From Microcaldota archaeon (GTDB lineage Archaea; Micrarchaeota; Micrarchaeia; Micrarchaeales; Micrarchaeaceae), in assembly GCA_027339055.1 (NCBI GenBank), contig DAHWRK010000001.1, positions 70,289 through 102,885 on the forward strand: a DNA stretch of 32,597 bases, given 5' to 3'. The position numbers and the translations under genes are program-made. This document shows, piece by piece, positions 10,810 through 31,637 of the stretch (positions within the stretch are counted from its first letter, which is position 1; each line of letters begins with the position of its first letter). The notes beneath the pieces were generated by a model. The model saw nothing but the letters and a program-made list of their open reading frames with translations. It was not told where the DNA came from and did no database searches.

Positions 10810-12609
10810 ATGGATGACTACAAAAAGAAGCTGGCATTGGCAATAAGGTCCGGCTATTTCTTAAGAAATTTGGAAATGGACCCCAAGGATGCTTCAGATC
10901 TTGCAGACTATCTCTTGTCGTTCTTCGGCTACGAAGAGGAGATTATAGACAACGTGCTTATGAAATATGACAGGGACATCTTCTACCAGATGGAAGACAA
11001 GGAGGTTCTCAAAACCAGCCAGTCCATGGAAAGAATCATAGAAGGCAGCCGTGCAGGAAAGGAATGGACTTTGAACAGATGGATACTCGATAAAGACGGT
11101 TTGCAAAGGCTCATCGAAAAGGCTTATGAAAAAACAAGGAGCATGCGAGCGCCAGAGGCCATATACAAGACCCTTTTCGGTTTCGCTTCCGTAGAAGAGC
11201 TGAAAAATGCAGATAACGATAATCTCTCAGATTCGGAATTCGCCTTTAATGAGGAATGGTATTCTTCCATGGAAAAAGAGCTTGGAAGTTACATGGAATC
11301 AAAAAAGGAAAAACACATACCAGACAGTAATTTTTACGATTGCCTCTCGATTTTTGTTGCAATGCTTAGCCCAGACACAAAACCTTTGGCTTATCTTGCC
11401 ATGGATCCGGAAAAAGAATATACGATTTCCGGAGTCCTTAAAGCCATGGCGGAGAAATTCGGATGCAGGCATGAAGAACTTGAAAACCACATAAACTTCG
11501 CATCGATAATGGAGAGTTTAGTATCCATAGGAGGGCTCCGAGAAAAGAGGATTGAAGCCCACAATAAAGAAACCAGGGTCTACTTCAAAAGCCCGCAGTA
11601 CAAAGTTTTCGACCTAATTGCAGCACACGCAGTAAAAGCATCGAGGGAAGAATTAGAACAAGCAAGGCTGATGCTCTCCGATGTATTTTCTGCGTCCGTA
11701 TCGCAAAAGACCATCTGTACTCATTCGCAAAACCTTTTCGGCCTGATGAAACTGCTTGCCGAAAATAGAGATAGGGGTTTCACGCTTAGCGAAATCAAGG
11801 GAATTATGAATAATGATAGCATAAAGCACGAAGTAGGAACGTTCAAATCGCTCGAAATTTTGGATTATGAATCTTTTTCGAGCACGGGCAGATCAGAAGG
11901 CAAGCTGAATTATAAAGTGTTAAGGACAACAAGCCTTGAAGAATTGCACAGGACGGGTTTTGTGAAAAGGCCCGAGAAATGCTTGAGGCTGGGAAAAGTC
12001 ATAGATTTCACAAATGAAAACCTGGATAGGGACATTGATAGATTTGATGTATCGCGGGCTTCGGGAAGCGACGTCTGCTTTTCTTCGAAATGCTTGGTAA
12101 TGCTATCGAAGGCCGGAGTGCTGGAGCGCAAAGCAGAGTGGAATGCAAAAAGATCAACGGTAAAGGCAAACGAAAATACCGTTAGGATATGGGATGGATT
12201 ATTATCGTGGCTATATCATATAGCCATGGAGGCAAGTTTTAGGGATAGCGTTGAAGAAAAGCCTTTGGACAGGCTTGACGCAGTGCTGCTCGGCGACGAC
12301 AGCCACTCGAGAGAACTGCAGGATTATGCCAAAGGAAACAGGTTAATTGAAGATTGTTCAGCCCATTTAAGATATCTTTCCGAAAATAGGCACAAGATTG
12401 TAAAAAATTCCGAATTTGCTGCGATAATGCCGGATGCCGCCAAGGATGGCGTCAGGCTGTACGAAATAGCGGAAAGGCTCGGGAAAAACACCAAAGTCAC
12501 TTATGGCATGGTACAATGGCACGTAAATGAACTGCTCAGGAAAGGCTCATTGGTAAAGAAAGGAAACGTTTATACGACGAAAACTCAACAAAAGGCTAAA
12601 AGCCAATAG
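10810..12609 (+). CDS. Large protein with several winged-helix-like segments; unknown function
   Basis: A 599-residue soluble protein with no signal peptide or membrane segment. The N-terminal 100 residues (ASDLADYLLSFFGYEEEIID, NVLMKYDRDIFYQMEDKEVL, AGKEWTLNRWIL) recall a domain of unknown function that I believe is found in Thermoplasmata-type archaea (DUF6015-like; from memory, unverified). At least three later segments look like winged helices: about 190-262 (EYTISGVLKAMAEKF to TRVYFKSP), 308-372 (GFTLSEIKGIMN to KLNYKVLRTT) and 545-590 (GVRLYEIAERLG to GNVYTTK). A weaker one lies at about 405-452. A chain of such domains suggests a DNA-binding regulator or a protein-scaffold role. It precedes the RHH-CysD-CysN group but is separated from it by a possible terminator and a new promoter. 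Codon use matches the core genes, not the island. Confidence 0.7.
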   Translation: MDDYKKKLALAIRSGYFLRNLEMDPKDASDLADYLLSFFGYEEEIIDNVLMKYDRDIFYQMEDKEVLKTSQSMERIIEGSRAGKEWTLNRWILDKDGLQRLIEKAYEKTRSMRAPEAIYKTLFGFASVEELKNADNDNLSDSEFAFNEEWYSSMEKELGSYMESKKEKHIPDSNFYDCLSIFVAMLSPDTKPLAYLAMDPEKEYTISGVLKAMAEKFGCRHEELENHINFASIMESLVSIGGLREKRIEAHNKETRVYFKSPQYKVFDLIAAHAVKASREELEQARLMLSDVFSASVSQKTICTHSQNLFGLMKLLAENRDRGFTLSEIKGIMNNDSIKHEVGTFKSLEILDYESFSSTGRSEGKLNYKVLRTTSLEELHRTGFVKRPEKCLRLGKVIDFTNENLDRDIDRFDVSRASGSDVCFSSKCLVMLSKAGVLERKAEWNAKRSTVKANENTVRIWDGLLSWLYHIAMEASFRDSVEEKPLDRLDAVLLGDDSHSRELQDYAKGNRLIEDCSAHLRYLSENRHKIVKNSEFAAIMPDAAKDGVRLYEIAERLGKNTKVTYGMVQWHVNELLRKGSLVKKGNVYTTKTQQKAKSQ

Positions 12610-12630
12610 AGCACAGGCAAGCTCTTTTTC
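12609..12630 (+). terminator. Possible terminator after the multi-winged-helix gene
   Basis: A weak stem GAGC (12609-12612) / GCTC (12621-12624) is followed at once by TTTTT (12625-12629). The T run alone would be enough for archaeal termination. It separates this gene from the RHH-CysDN promoter. Confidence 0.35.
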
Positions 12631-12639
12631 CAGATGCAA

Positions 12640-12658
12640 GATGCATAATACGTGCATC
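12640..12658. promoter_or_regulatory. GATGCA inverted repeat upstream of the TATA box
   Basis: GATGCA (12640-12645) and TGCATC (12653-12658) form an inverted repeat with a 7-bp spacer. A further direct copy of GATGCA occurs at 12633-12638. The repeat lies just upstream of the TATA-like run of the RHH gene and could be an activator site or a hairpin. Confidence 0.4.
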
Positions 12659-12666
12659 GCAAACCT

Positions 12667-12678
12667 TTTTATATATTA
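12667..12678 (+). promoter_or_regulatory. TATA box of the RHH-cysD-cysN operon
   Basis: The T/A run TTTTATATATTA is centred 48 bp before the ATG at 12721 and would place the start of transcription at about 12697-12702, inside the palindrome that follows. This position favours the ATG at 12721 over the in-frame ATG at 12679. Confidence 0.55.
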
Positions 12679-12710
12679 ATGTATTATTATGTTATAACAT
12701 TAAAATACAT
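12679..12710. promoter_or_regulatory. 32-bp near-perfect palindrome, candidate operator
   Basis: The sequence is symmetric about 12694/12695 with 14 of 16 base pairs matching. The inner core is ATGTTATAACAT (12689-12700) and the outer arms are ATGTATT (12679-12685) and AATACAT (12704-12710). It covers the expected transcription start between the TATA box and the start codon of an RHH protein. RHH dimers bind such symmetric AT-rich sites, often as two adjacent dimers, so autorepression is the simplest reading. Confidence 0.65.
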
Positions 12711-12720
12711 AGATGATAGC

Positions 12721-12948
12721 ATGGCTTTGCCGGAAAAGGAAAGGAGGAAATATACAACGATAACCATACCTACGCCGCTGTTCGAGAGCATAAAAAAGAG
12801 CATAAATGGCACAGGATTTTCTTCGGTTTCGGATTACGCGACATATATCCTTAGGGAGACAACAGCCGAATTGAACTCGAAAAGCAGCGGGAAAAAATCT
12901 GAAGACAGCGCTATAGTGAAGAAGCTGAGGGCGCTCGGCTATATATGA
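12721..12948 (+). CDS. Ribbon-helix-helix (CopG-like) protein with a CysD-like C-terminal tail
   Basis: A 75-residue protein. The RHH fold spans about residues 10-46: the strand YTTITIPTPLFESIKKSI, then GTGFSSVSDYATYILRETTA. A polar linker (KSSGKKSEDSA) leads to the tail VKKLRALGYI. The tail matches the end of CysD downstream (MEKLRALGYM) and the coding DNA is an exact 25-nt repeat. The start ATG at 12721 has GATG five bases upstream; an open frame extends to 12652 but crosses the promoter and palindrome. The gene precedes cysD by 12 bp. It probably represses its own operon by binding the palindrome at 12679-12710, with the tail perhaps reading the state of the sulfurylase. The regulatory role is inferred. 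Confidence 0.78.
   Translation: MALPEKERRKYTTITIPTPLFESIKKSINGTGFSSVSDYATYILRETTAELNSKSSGKKSEDSAIVKKLRALGYI
12920..12944 (+). repeat. 25-nt direct repeat, copy 1 (end of RHH gene)
   Basis: This stretch, starting AGAAGCTGAGG and ending CGGCTATAT, is identical to 13736-13760 at the end of cysD. After one differing base both copies run into TGA, so both genes stop at the same place relative to the repeat. Confidence 0.9.
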
Positions 12949-12960
12949 TAATTTGCCGCA

Positions 12961-13764
12961 ATGGAGCTGATTTACATGATAGAGCAAAACCTTGATGAAT
13001 TGGAGGAGAAGAGCATATACATAATGAGGGAAGCCAAGGAGCGCTTTGGAAACATGGCAGCGCTTTGGAGCATGGGAAAAGACAGCACAGTAATGCTGGC
13101 GCTGGCTCGCAAGGCTTTCATGGGCAAGGTCCCTTTCCCTGTCATACATATAGACAATGGAATAGACTTCCCGGAAACTTACGAGTTTAGGGAGAAACTG
13201 GCCAAGAAGTGGAAGCTTGACCTCATAGTGCAAAATAGCGACATAAAGCCGGAGATATCTGGATACGCCTGCTGCGGTGCCAACAAGACGGTGGCGCTCA
13301 AGAAGATAATGAGAGAGAGGGGCTTCGATGCCCTTATAGTTTCGATAAGGAGGGACGAACACGGGATAAGGGGGAAAGAGAGGTACATATCCCCAAGGAC
13401 CAAGGACTTCAAGTGGAAATACAAGAACCAGCCAGCGGAACTGTGGAACGATTATTCGTCAAAGCAGGGCAATGGGGGCCACATACGCGTGCACCCGCTG
13501 CTGGATTGGAACGAGATAGATATATGGAATTACATAAAACGCGAAAAGATACCGATAAACAGCCTCTACTTCGCAAGGGACGGGACGAGATATAGAAGCC
13601 TTGGATGCACGCACTGCACCGTGCCGATAAAGTCAAACGCTGACAGCATTGACAAGATAATAAGCGAGCTCAGAAGCACCAAGGTGGAAGAAAGGAGCGG
13701 AAGGCAGCAGGACAAGGAGACGGCCTATATAATGGAGAAGCTGAGGGCGCTCGGCTATATGTGA
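12961..13764 (+). CDS. cysD: Sulfate adenylyltransferase subunit 2 (CysD)
   Basis: The catalytic PP-loop subunit of heterodimeric ATP sulfurylase, which makes adenosine 5'-phosphosulfate from ATP and sulfate with CysN. The 267-residue sequence has the CysD form of the PP-loop, LWSMGKDSTVM (36-46), then LARKAFMGKVPFPVIHIDNG, VSIRRDEHGIRGKERYISPR, NQPAELWN and IRVHPLLDWNEIDIWNYI. The C-terminus has YRSLGCTHC, TKVEERSGRQQD and MEKLRALGYM, corresponding to the end of bacterial CysD. It is shorter than the E. coli protein (302) because a segment before YRSLGC is reduced. ATG 12961 is used; ATG 12976 has GGAG 9 bp upstream and may be the real start. cysN begins 9 bp downstream. PAPS reductase is less likely because of the CysD-specific blocks and the CysN partner. 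Confidence 0.88.
   Translation: MELIYMIEQNLDELEEKSIYIMREAKERFGNMAALWSMGKDSTVMLALARKAFMGKVPFPVIHIDNGIDFPETYEFREKLAKKWKLDLIVQNSDIKPEISGYACCGANKTVALKKIMRERGFDALIVSIRRDEHGIRGKERYISPRTKDFKWKYKNQPAELWNDYSSKQGNGGHIRVHPLLDWNEIDIWNYIKREKIPINSLYFARDGTRYRSLGCTHCTVPIKSNADSIDKIISELRSTKVEERSGRQQDKETAYIMEKLRALGYM
13736..13760 (+). repeat. 25-nt direct repeat, copy 2 (end of cysD)
   Basis: Identical to 12920-12944 and in the same reading frame. It encodes KLRALGY at the CysD C-terminus. Confidence 0.9.
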
Positions 13765-13773
13765 GGTATCCGT

Positions 13774-14994
13774 ATGCACATCCAACAGATAACCATGCTA
13801 GGACACAAGGACCACGGCAAGTCCACGCTGATAGGTTCCCTTCTTATGAGCACCGGGTCGGCTACAGATGAGCGCATAGCAGATGCAAAGAGCACCAGCA
13901 AAAAGCTCGGGAGGCAGTTCGAGCCTGCTTTTATACTGGATGCATTTTCCGAGGAGCGGGAGGGAGGCCTCACGATAGATACGGCCAGGGCTCAGATAAA
14001 ATACAGAGGAAAGGCATTTGAGCTCATAGATGTCCCGGGGCACGATGAACTGATAAAGAACATGCTCAGCGGAGCATCATACGCAACCACTGCAGTGCTG
14101 GTGGTATCGGCTGCGAAGGACGAGGGCATAAAGCCGCAGACAAAAAGGCATCTTTTTCTTGCCAAAATGCTTGGAATAAGGCATTTTGTAGTTGCCGTCA
14201 ACAAGATGGACACGGTAGGCTATTCGCAGAACGATTATGAAATGATAAAGAACGATATAGCCGCTTATCTTGACGGCATAGGAGTCCATTCCCAAAGCGT
14301 AAACTTCGTGCCCATATCTGCATATAAATCGGAGAACATAATCTCGAAGTCCGGGAACATGCATTGGTACAGGGGCAAGCCACTGATGGAGCTCCTCCTC
14401 ACGTGCCACACTAAAAATTTTACGGGAAAGATGCCGCTTAGAGCCATAATCCAAGGAACGCTCGAGACCGAAAGCGGGATGGCGTATACGGCGAAGGTGC
14501 TGAGCGGCACCATAGAAGCCGGATCGAGCATAAGGATACTGCCGCTCAACAAGAAGGCAACCGTAAAAAGGCTTTATGTTAAAGGCAGGGAAGCGCGCAG
14601 CGCAAAGGCAGAGGAGAACATAGCGATAAACGTATCGCAGGATATGGGCAACATGCGAGGCGCGGTAATAAGCAGCACCAACATGACGAAATCTGCAAAC
14701 GCCATAAGCACTATGCTGTTTTTTGTAAAACCAGTTGGAGGAAGCGCGGAACTAAGGTTCAACGGCAATAGCACTAAAGCAAAGATAAGCCTGGACAAAG
14801 TCATAGACACCGTCACAGGCAAACCGAAAAATACCCAGAAGCCAAAGGCCCTTGACGCTGCCGAGTGCATAATAAGGCTGGAAAAAAAGGTAGCCGTAGA
14901 GGAATTTTCAAGCTTCAGAGACCTTGGCAGGTTCGTTGTCTACAGCTCAGGCAAGTTTGCAGGGATAGGAGTAGTGGAAAAGGTGCTTGGATAG
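13774..14994 (+). CDS. cysN: Sulfate adenylyltransferase subunit 1, GTPase (CysN)
   Basis: The EF-Tu-like GTPase subunit of ATP sulfurylase, whose GTP hydrolysis drives sulfate activation by CysD. It has 406 residues. G1 is GHKDHGKST (10-18), followed by the CysN-type switch EEREGGLTIDTARAQIKY, G3 DVPGH (86-90), G4 NKMD (143-146) and G5 near SAYKS. Two beta-barrel domains follow, with FTGKMPLRAIIQGTLE and TAKVLSGTIEAGSSIRILPL. No APS kinase (CysC) domain is fused. EF-1A is excluded by the switch sequence and by the CysD neighbour. The ATG has GAGGTATC upstream and lies 9 bp after cysD. The heterodimeric sulfurylase is mainly bacterial, so ancient transfer is possible. Confidence 0.87.
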   Translation: MHIQQITMLGHKDHGKSTLIGSLLMSTGSATDERIADAKSTSKKLGRQFEPAFILDAFSEEREGGLTIDTARAQIKYRGKAFELIDVPGHDELIKNMLSGASYATTAVLVVSAAKDEGIKPQTKRHLFLAKMLGIRHFVVAVNKMDTVGYSQNDYEMIKNDIAAYLDGIGVHSQSVNFVPISAYKSENIISKSGNMHWYRGKPLMELLLTCHTKNFTGKMPLRAIIQGTLETESGMAYTAKVLSGTIEAGSSIRILPLNKKATVKRLYVKGREARSAKAEENIAINVSQDMGNMRGAVISSTNMTKSANAISTMLFFVKPVGGSAELRFNGNSTKAKISLDKVIDTVTGKPKNTQKPKALDAAECIIRLEKKVAVEEFSSFRDLGRFVVYSSGKFAGIGVVEKVLG

Positions 14995-14998
14995 ATGA

Positions 14999-15170
14999 GA
15001 TTGCAGCAATCGGATGGATAATAACTAAGCCCTGAAAATTTCAGGGATGTAAACCTGCAAGGACTGGAATGATGCGGTTTGAGGTACATCAGAAAAACAT
15101 ATAAGGGCTTTTGGAAAAGATAATGCTGGAGTTGTAGGCGCTGGAATCCTAAAAGCGCCGAAAGGCGCAA
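14999..15170 (+). ncRNA. Candidate structured RNA in the gap after cysN
   Basis: A 242-bp gap without genes contains several complementary segments: GATTGC/GCAATC (14999-15011), TTGCAG/CTGCAA (15001-15006, 15055-15060), hairpin CCCTGAAAATTTCAGGG (15030-15046), TGATG/CATCA (15070-15074, 15087-15091), GGCGCT/AGCGCC (15137-15142, 15154-15159) and GCGCC-GAAA-GGCGC (15155-15168). Several are mutually exclusive: the last two share a strand, and AAGCCCT (15027-15033) can instead pair with AGGGCTT (15104-15110). The TATA box of the next gene lies downstream, so this would be a cysN 3' UTR or an independent RNA. No known RNA family was recognised. Confidence 0.3.
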
Positions 15171-15236
15171 TGCCTTTAAGGAAGCCGATATCAAAGTAAT
15201 TTTATACAATAGAGATCAACAAATTCAAAAGGTGTC

Positions 15237-30558: not shown

Positions 30559-31035
30559 TTAGGGCTTGTAGCCTAGCTTCTTTAGCAATTCCCTTCTCTG
30601 CTTTATGTGTTCTTCGTCCTCCGCCCCGATGCACGTCTGCCCGTCTACCACGCCTATCACCGCTTTACCAAGGTCCGTAGAGACCGTTACTACCTGTACT
30701 TTGTTTGCGGTAGCGCAGAATATTTCAGATACTTCTGGTACCGACCTTACCGCATTTATAACATTTATTGGAAAGGCCCCAGTAAAGAGTATTATAAACG
30801 TATGTCCTGCTGCTATTCCAAGGGCATTCTTTTTCGCAGCATCTATGAGCTCTGAATCGTTCCCTTCATACCTCACCAATCTTTCTCCGCTTGCTTCAAC
30901 AAAGGCGAGGCCGAATTTCACGCTCGGAGCTGCCGAGGCCATTGCCTCATAGAGATCCTCCGCAGTTTTTATGAATCCCGCATGGCCTATTATGCACTGC
31001 CAGTCATCTTTCTTGTATAATTCATAGGCATTCAT
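30559..31035 (-). CDS. Adenosine-specific kinase family protein
   Basis: A 158-residue protein of the archaeal and bacterial family annotated as adenosine-specific kinase (PF04008). The conserved blocks are almost complete: IGHAGFIKTAEDLYEAMASA, PSVKFGLAFVEASGERLVRYEG, NALGIAAGHTFIILF, GAFPINVINAVRSVPEV, IFCATANKVQV, and the tail RRELLKKLGYKP. The true cellular role of the family is poorly known. The start at ATG 31035 overlaps the stop of the upstream methyltransferase as ATGA; a TTG at 31041 is possible. Co-transcription with that gene is likely. Confidence 0.9.
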   Translation of the reverse strand: MNAYELYKKDDWQCIIGHAGFIKTAEDLYEAMASAAPSVKFGLAFVEASGERLVRYEGNDSELIDAAKKNALGIAAGHTFIILFTGAFPINVINAVRSVPEVSEIFCATANKVQVVTVSTDLGKAVIGVVDGQTCIGAEDEEHIKQRRELLKKLGYKP

Positions 31036-31637
31036 CTCCAATTGAAAACACCCATTTTCTTGTTGTTTTTATATGTTATTGCAACGATATCCTCAAAAAA
31101 CATGTGCTTTTTGCCTATCACCTTGGCATTCAGCTTTTCTACATCAAGATCGTATTTGTTCACTGTGCTCTCGACCATTATCACCCTCCCAGTCCCTGAC
31201 AGGTGGCTGAATGAGTCTTTGATGAACCTATCTATTAGGCCGCGCCCGTCTTCTCCCCCGTCGGTCGCGATCTTCAGATAGTCTTTTGTCTCTGCTCCGA
31301 AACGCGCCGATTCCAGATAGGGAGGATTGAATATTATTGTGTCAAACCTTCCTTTTATGTGTTCAAAGAGATCGCTAACCACAAATGTGCCACCTACATT
31401 ATTCTGCTCGACGTTGTGTCTTGCACACCTTATTGCGTGTATGCTTACGTCGGAAAAAGTTACCTCGCAGCCCTTCTTTGCCGCCATTATTCCCTGTATC
31501 CCTGTGCCGGTTCCCATGTCTAGGGTTTTGCCGGAAGCCAGGCGCTGCACTGCCTCAGACAGCAAATCCGAATCTTCTCTTGGCCTGTAGACGTTATGAC
31601 ACTCCGTTATTTTTATCCCGTTTTTTACTAGCAGCAA
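31032..31637 (-). CDS. HemK/Mtq2-like release factor glutamine methyltransferase
   Basis: A SAM-dependent Rossmann-fold methyltransferase predicted to methylate the GGQ glutamine of archaeal release factor aRF1. It has 201 residues. Motifs are VYRPREDSDLLSEAV (about 16-30), the SAM loop LDMGTGTGIQGI, VTFSDVSIHAIRCARHN and the catalytic FNPPYL, the signature of glutamine and adenine N-methyltransferases. The short length with no N-terminal helical domain matches the eukaryote/archaeal Mtq2 type rather than bacterial PrmC. The start is TTG 31637, preceded by AGTGAT. The archaeal partner Trm112 is not in the window. Confidence 0.88.
   Translation of the reverse strand: MLLVKNGIKITECHNVYRPREDSDLLSEAVQRLASGKTLDMGTGTGIQGIMAAKKGCEVTFSDVSIHAIRCARHNVEQNNVGGTFVVSDLFEHIKGRFDTIIFNPPYLESARFGAETKDYLKIATDGGEDGRGLIDRFIKDSFSHLSGTGRVIMVESTVNKYDLDVEKLNAKVIGKKHMFFEDIVAITYKNNKKMGVFNWR

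Follow-up and report, generated by a model that had tools for sequence, protein, structure and literature searches.

A conserved RHH protein as likely autoregulator of the sulfate-activation operon in Micrarchaeota, and the C-terminal peptide that it shares with CysD

In the RHH autorepressors and type II antitoxins (ParD, VapB, RelB, CopG and Arc), a small RHH protein is encoded by the first gene of the operon, a palindromic operator lies near the promoter and a C-terminal segment extends beyond the DNA-binding domain. The micrarchaeal RHH protein described here has the same layout, with a putative operator. It differs from the type II antitoxins in its neighbours, which are sulfate-activation or sulfation enzymes, and in its tail, which is an invariant LxxLGY helix and not a neutralising domain. 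No toxin gene adjoins it, and it is not placed among the type II antitoxins because the genes downstream are mid (where present), cysD and cysN, of which the last two match metabolic enzymes. Its best structural match is the N-terminal RHH domain of NikR (2wvd_B) but, with 75 residues only, it is devoid of the nickel-binding C-terminal domain. The enzyme encoded downstream resembles the CysDN ATP sulfurylase (1zun) in having CysD and CysN subunits and in a CysD C-terminus which aligns with that of P. syringae, whereas the micrarchaeal CysD, unlike the bacterial CysDs examined, carries Leu (sometimes Phe) before the Gly-Tyr pair.

The features of the locus are given below, with coordinates counted along the window, i.e. 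the whole 32.6-kb stretch of DNA that was analysed.

12666..12677, + strand: TATA-box-like element of the operon promoter, TTTTTATATATT, from the sequence
12677..12712, no strand: four half-sites with 10-bp spacing (TAATGT at 12677, TTATGT at 12687, ACATTA at 12697, ACATAG at 12707)
12687..12702, no strand: putative core operator palindrome TTATGTTATAACATTA, from conservation, with one mismatch to TAATGT-N4-ACATTA
12721..12948, + strand: RHH DNA-binding protein, 75 aa, likely autoregulator
12910..12945, + strand: RHH C-terminal tail AIVKKLRALGYI, a helix with a Gly-Tyr end behind a variable linker
12920..12944, + strand: direct repeat copy 1, 25-nt identity
12961..13764, + strand: cysD, sulfate adenylyltransferase subunit 2, 267 aa (PF01507, NF003587, 1zun_A)
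13726..13761, + strand: CysD C-terminal tail YIMEKLRALGYM, from alignment with the P. syringae CysD C-terminus
13736..13760, + strand: direct repeat copy 2, 25-nt identity
13774..14994, + strand: cysN, GTPase subunit, 406 aa, without an APS-kinase domain (family matches; 1zun_B among the structural matches)

The window RHH protein gave no match in Pfam or NCBIfam, and its relatives gave weak RHH_1 matches under the Pfam cut-off. The beta strand of RHH proteins pairs only in the dimer. In the AlphaFold2 model, which is a monomer built on an alignment of 25 relatives, helices are predicted at residues 18-28 and 36-55 behind an N-terminal TTITIP segment, and the model is consistent with the beta strand and two helices of an RHH-type fold, the strand being seen as a segment. 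Foldseek placed the RHH domains of NikR, ParD and Arc among the matches of this model with weak E-values; the NikR match has a probability of 0.93, an E-value of 0.51 and an rmsd of 1.6 over 48 columns.

The product of the second gene is firmly identified as CysD from its PF01507 core (4e-41), its score with the CysD subfamily model NF003587 (2.5e-92, 309 bits against a cut-off of 195) and its CysN partner. The P. syringae CysD (1zun_A) aligns with it through ...SMEEKKRQGY, which bears out the earlier statement that bacterial CysDs end in a similar way. The bacterial CysD ends examined (FERLRSSGYL, FERLRATGYL, LEELRKDGYM and LETLRREGYM) follow LRxxGY(L/M), and therefore the micrarchaeal tail is taken as the usual CysD C-terminus in which Leu precedes Gly-Tyr. 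Searches of the open literature on the CysD C-terminus returned nothing about the tail. RHH relatives were found in 131 of 295 Micrarchaeota genomes in a search with the RHH query, and the CysD model scored above its cut-off in 129 of the 295. The usual gene order is RHH, mid, cysD, cysN, and in several genera the RHH gene is divergent from mid-cysD-cysN. The mid gene encodes a conserved protein of ~95-100 aa (e.g. L056:4243-4542) with no Pfam family above cut-off; in most Micrarchaeota it separates RHH from cysD, and it is absent in the genus of the window, where RHH adjoins cysD. That RHH and cysD belong together, as had been supposed, was upheld by the conservation of both the operon and its upstream operator in Micrarchaeota. 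RHH, cysD and cysN (12721-14991) share one reading frame, in which nothing but stops (TGA TAA, then TGA) and ~9 nt per gap divides them. No known RNA element of Rfam was matched at 12400-15200.

The putative operator lies between the TATA-like element and the RHH start codon, and most relatives likewise have T/A-rich TATA-like runs directly before the operator. The four half-sites at 10-bp steps suggest binding of more than one RHH dimer; outer extra half-sites recur in many relatives. When the operator was scored as the best match to the 16-mer TAATGTTATAACATTA in the RHH upstream regions of 78 loci, at most four mismatches were found in 76 and none in 23, as compared to mostly 5-7 mismatches in shuffled sequence. 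In the congener genome G056, a single site has two mismatches or fewer, and it lies in front of RHH. The perfect palindrome TAATGT-N4-ACATTA occurs at 29 places in 97 genomes, 23 of these being directly upstream of RHH genes, and is absent from the searched genomes of other families of the same class which have no RHH gene. The six perfect sites away from RHH (G036:C11:366367, G029:C16:12187, G095:C13:10711, G052:C12:18160, G015:C13:65706 and G026:C37:9261) may possibly be extra regulon members or may have arisen by chance.

A subclass of the RHH proteins has a different DNA-contacting strand (EFTSxSIP/GFPSVSSY), and its gene is often divergent from mid-cysD-cysN. For this subclass every one of the 24 upstream regions contains TAATTAT-NN-ATAATTA (at most two mismatches), and 20 of them contain it two or more times. 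Two operator classes correspond to two RHH subclasses and, since the operator class follows the RHH class, this provides good, though indirect, evidence that the RHH protein would bind this DNA. Upstream of haloarchaeal and some other RHH genes, neither operator class was recognisable. The protein is likely to be a local autoregulator of sulfate activation, because the operator is conserved upstream of it and the operator class is matched to the RHH subclass. No description of this regulator-operator pair was found in literature searches, and Micrarchaeota gain a concrete and testable pair for sulfate activation.

The two tails are joined by an exact 25-nt identity, AGAAGCTGAGGGCGCTCGGCTATAT, at 12920-12944 and 13736-13760 on the same strand and in the same frame. 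This repeat at the ends of the RHH gene and cysD had been reported in the preliminary description and was confirmed from the sequence; no other direct repeat in the window reaches 18 nt. The RHH protein ends in ...VKKLRALGYI and CysD in ...MEKLRALGYM, the common KLRALGY being encoded by the repeat. Such ends are rare. In a whole-genome survey of congener G056 (a single contig of 989,838 bp, of which 72 kb were masked), only the RHH and CysD open reading frames end in (K/R)LxxLGY plus one residue, and in 60 Micrarchaeota genomes a 27-nt C-terminus pattern gave ~60 matches, almost all falling on RHH or CysD genes. The likeness of the two C-termini exceeds chance.

Both tails are also strongly conserved. 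Residues L69, L72, G73 and Y74 are invariant among the 25 aligned RHH sequences behind a variable linker. In a census of 117 distinct RHH proteins every one has an LxxLGY-like end (followed by 0-5 residues); the proteins were gathered by the RHH-domain motif only, and the tailed members stand beside cysD, a PF01507 paralog, sulfatase genes, sulfotransferase/flippase genes or in haloarchaeal glycan clusters. On the CysD side, L, R, G and Y of the tail are invariant in 75 unique locus pairs, and L-x-x-L-G-Y is found on nearly all CysDs.

RHH proteins that lie near sulfur genes of other kinds and carry such tails, which the preliminary description had mentioned as ALGYL-like, were indeed seen in Micrarchaeota and in haloarchaeal clusters. 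Haloarchaeal plasmid RHH relatives, encoded in surface-glycan clusters, end in LxSLGY or LxxLGY, and most have sulfatase or alkaline-phosphatase-family genes no more than a few kb away; the relatives outside Micrarchaeota were gathered with tail-containing queries and are biased to tailed members. No bacterial RHH relative with this tail was found in the plasmid collection. In Micrarchaeota, a PF01507 (PAPS-reductase-like) paralog near RHH with the tail RE(R/T)xMK(K/Q)LRxLGY is found at L068, L076, L084, L086 and L230-L234, and several such loci have a sulfatase-like gene and no CysN.

The tail of each protein was predicted, with low confidence, to be a short helix by AlphaFold2, at residues 64-71 of RHH (pLDDT ~65) and 250-263 of CysD, which end directly before LGY in the same register. 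When CysD and CysN were modelled as one chain read through the intergenic stop, the CysN part was good and the CysD tail was mostly below 50 pLDDT. Schellman loops are the commonest helix C-caps, and their Leu-rich triangles at C3, Ccap and C'' are fully buried in 87% of cases (PMC9951308). L-x-x-L-G-Y fits such a cap, its hydrophobic residues falling on C3, Ccap and C'', and matches the XAAXGX pattern (PMC9951308). Since capped hydrophobic triangles are usually buried and the tail is an invariant element on a variable linker, docking on a protein surface is suggested. A C-terminal peptide common to unrelated proteins of one pathway is brought to light, the docking of which is directly testable.

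The conservation of the operon and its operator, the conservation of the tails and their mutual independence are established computationally. The reading which we hold to be rather probable is that RHH autoregulates the sulfate-activation operon, that the KLRALGY tail is ancestral in this RHH family and the CysD tail is the conserved C-terminus of CysD itself, and that the two are alike by helix capping. RHH would bind the palindrome that separates the TATA box from the RHH start codon, as conservation and class co-variation suggest, and once bound would control RHH-(mid)-cysD-cysN, presumably by repression. Both tails would be short terminal helices under the same L-x-x-L-G-Y Schellman-type cap, and would look alike because this pattern is kept by selection and not because of recent copying. 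The RHH tail would then dock on a protein, perhaps on RHH itself, which would give cooperative dimers over the repeated 10-bp half-sites.

It is extremely improbable that the RHH of this lineage recently acquired a duplicate of the CysD tail; a recent duplication had been read from the 25-nt identity in the preliminary description. The tail is present on all the RHH relatives examined in Micrarchaeota and Halobacteria, both tails are kept phylum-wide, and the number of identical codons between the two tails across the phylum equals that expected from codon usage (162 vs 161.2, z = 0.08). What speaks for copying is local: in the genus of the window, all codons of the tail pair are identical (7/7) both at L002, which is this genome, and at L006, against 0.009 such loci expected among 13 comparable ones, an excess spotted post hoc in few genomes. 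L002 and L006 use different codons from each other in their identical tail pairs, and there is no excess at L005 and L008, which belong to this genus too. Gene conversion, also proposed earlier, may therefore possibly have homogenised the tail DNA within this genus; it does not hold phylum-wide. The proposal that the RHH tail mimics that of CysD and contends with it for a CysN pocket, by which RHH would sense free CysN, draws on the presence of both proteins with the same tail in one operon in most Micrarchaeota, on their being the only such C-termini in the congener genome and on antitoxins of similar general layout, which act by C-terminal partner binding (PMC4803016). It is nevertheless very unlikely. 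Five genomes in which no RHH was detected (G017, in one contig, G159, G160, G168 and G066) retain the CysD tail as LRAMGYM, LRALGYM or LRSLGYM. The RHH tail is kept in G190, G138, G092, G277 and G081, which have no CysD over cut-off and CysN matches only at the EF1A/eIF2-gamma level; these are drafts of 83-92% completeness, so that single absences are soft and five together less so. In the first four of them RHH lies near a PF01507 paralog ending in KLRxLGY, with a sulfatase-like gene in at least some, and G081 has two RHHs, with a flippase and a sulfotransferase-like gene nearby and a sulfatase-like gene alongside (function from sequence). As each tail persists without the other, and the RHH tail also in haloarchaeal glycan clusters, CysN is unlikely as the general docking site, and the competition does not stand as a general role. 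The expected co-variation of the tails was not borne out either, substitutions at two variable positions being not significantly linked (Fisher p = 0.12 each, 75 locus pairs). Independent variation had been named beforehand as evidence against the proposal, and in large part the tails do appear to vary in this manner.

Two further readings concern what the motif is for. LxxLGY may be merely a handy helix end, with unrelated jobs for the two tails and no functional link; this is possible, albeit doubtful. It agrees with the Schellman pattern cited above, and only a small step separates bacterial ends such as LRSSGYL and LRKDGYM from LRALGYM, but the motif is rare genome-wide and RHH and CysD, which are neighbours, are almost its sole carriers. 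Alternatively, LxxLGY may be a transferable C-terminal docking motif of sulfate-activation and sulfation clusters, an address tag on the regulator and on unrelated enzymes, whose tails would compete for one common partner so that RHH reports its occupancy and enzyme abundance feeds back on transcription. Such an arrangement is unlikely, though it has points in its favour. In G138 (L231, 26-2741) the unrelated neighbours PF01507 paralog, RHH and mid end in KLRELGYA, KLRALGYIK and KLSALGYM, respectively, which favours a shared outside partner over self-docking, and some alkaline-phosphatase-superfamily proteins in RHH-bearing haloarchaeal clusters end in LRALGYV, LKGLGYME or LEDLGYA. Against it, no common partner gene was found, most neighbouring sulfatases are without the tail, the mid tail is a lineage-specific extension in G138 which is absent from mid in all the other loci listed, and a common helix cap could arise by convergence. 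Returning to the autoregulatory reading, the most likely picture of the RHH tail is a C-terminal helix with a cap, docking on a protein that is possibly RHH itself. The neighbours differ between lineages, so RHH itself, which is always present, is the most economical docking surface; self-docking is modestly ahead of a shared outside partner, which is the second choice.

Elsewhere in the window, a PF04008 adenosine-specific kinase (30559-31041) also ends in LLKKLGYKP. Its relatives end in LKKFGYKP, VRKIGYKK and LLRDLGYKLK, and this end is probably the own C-terminus of the PF04008 family.
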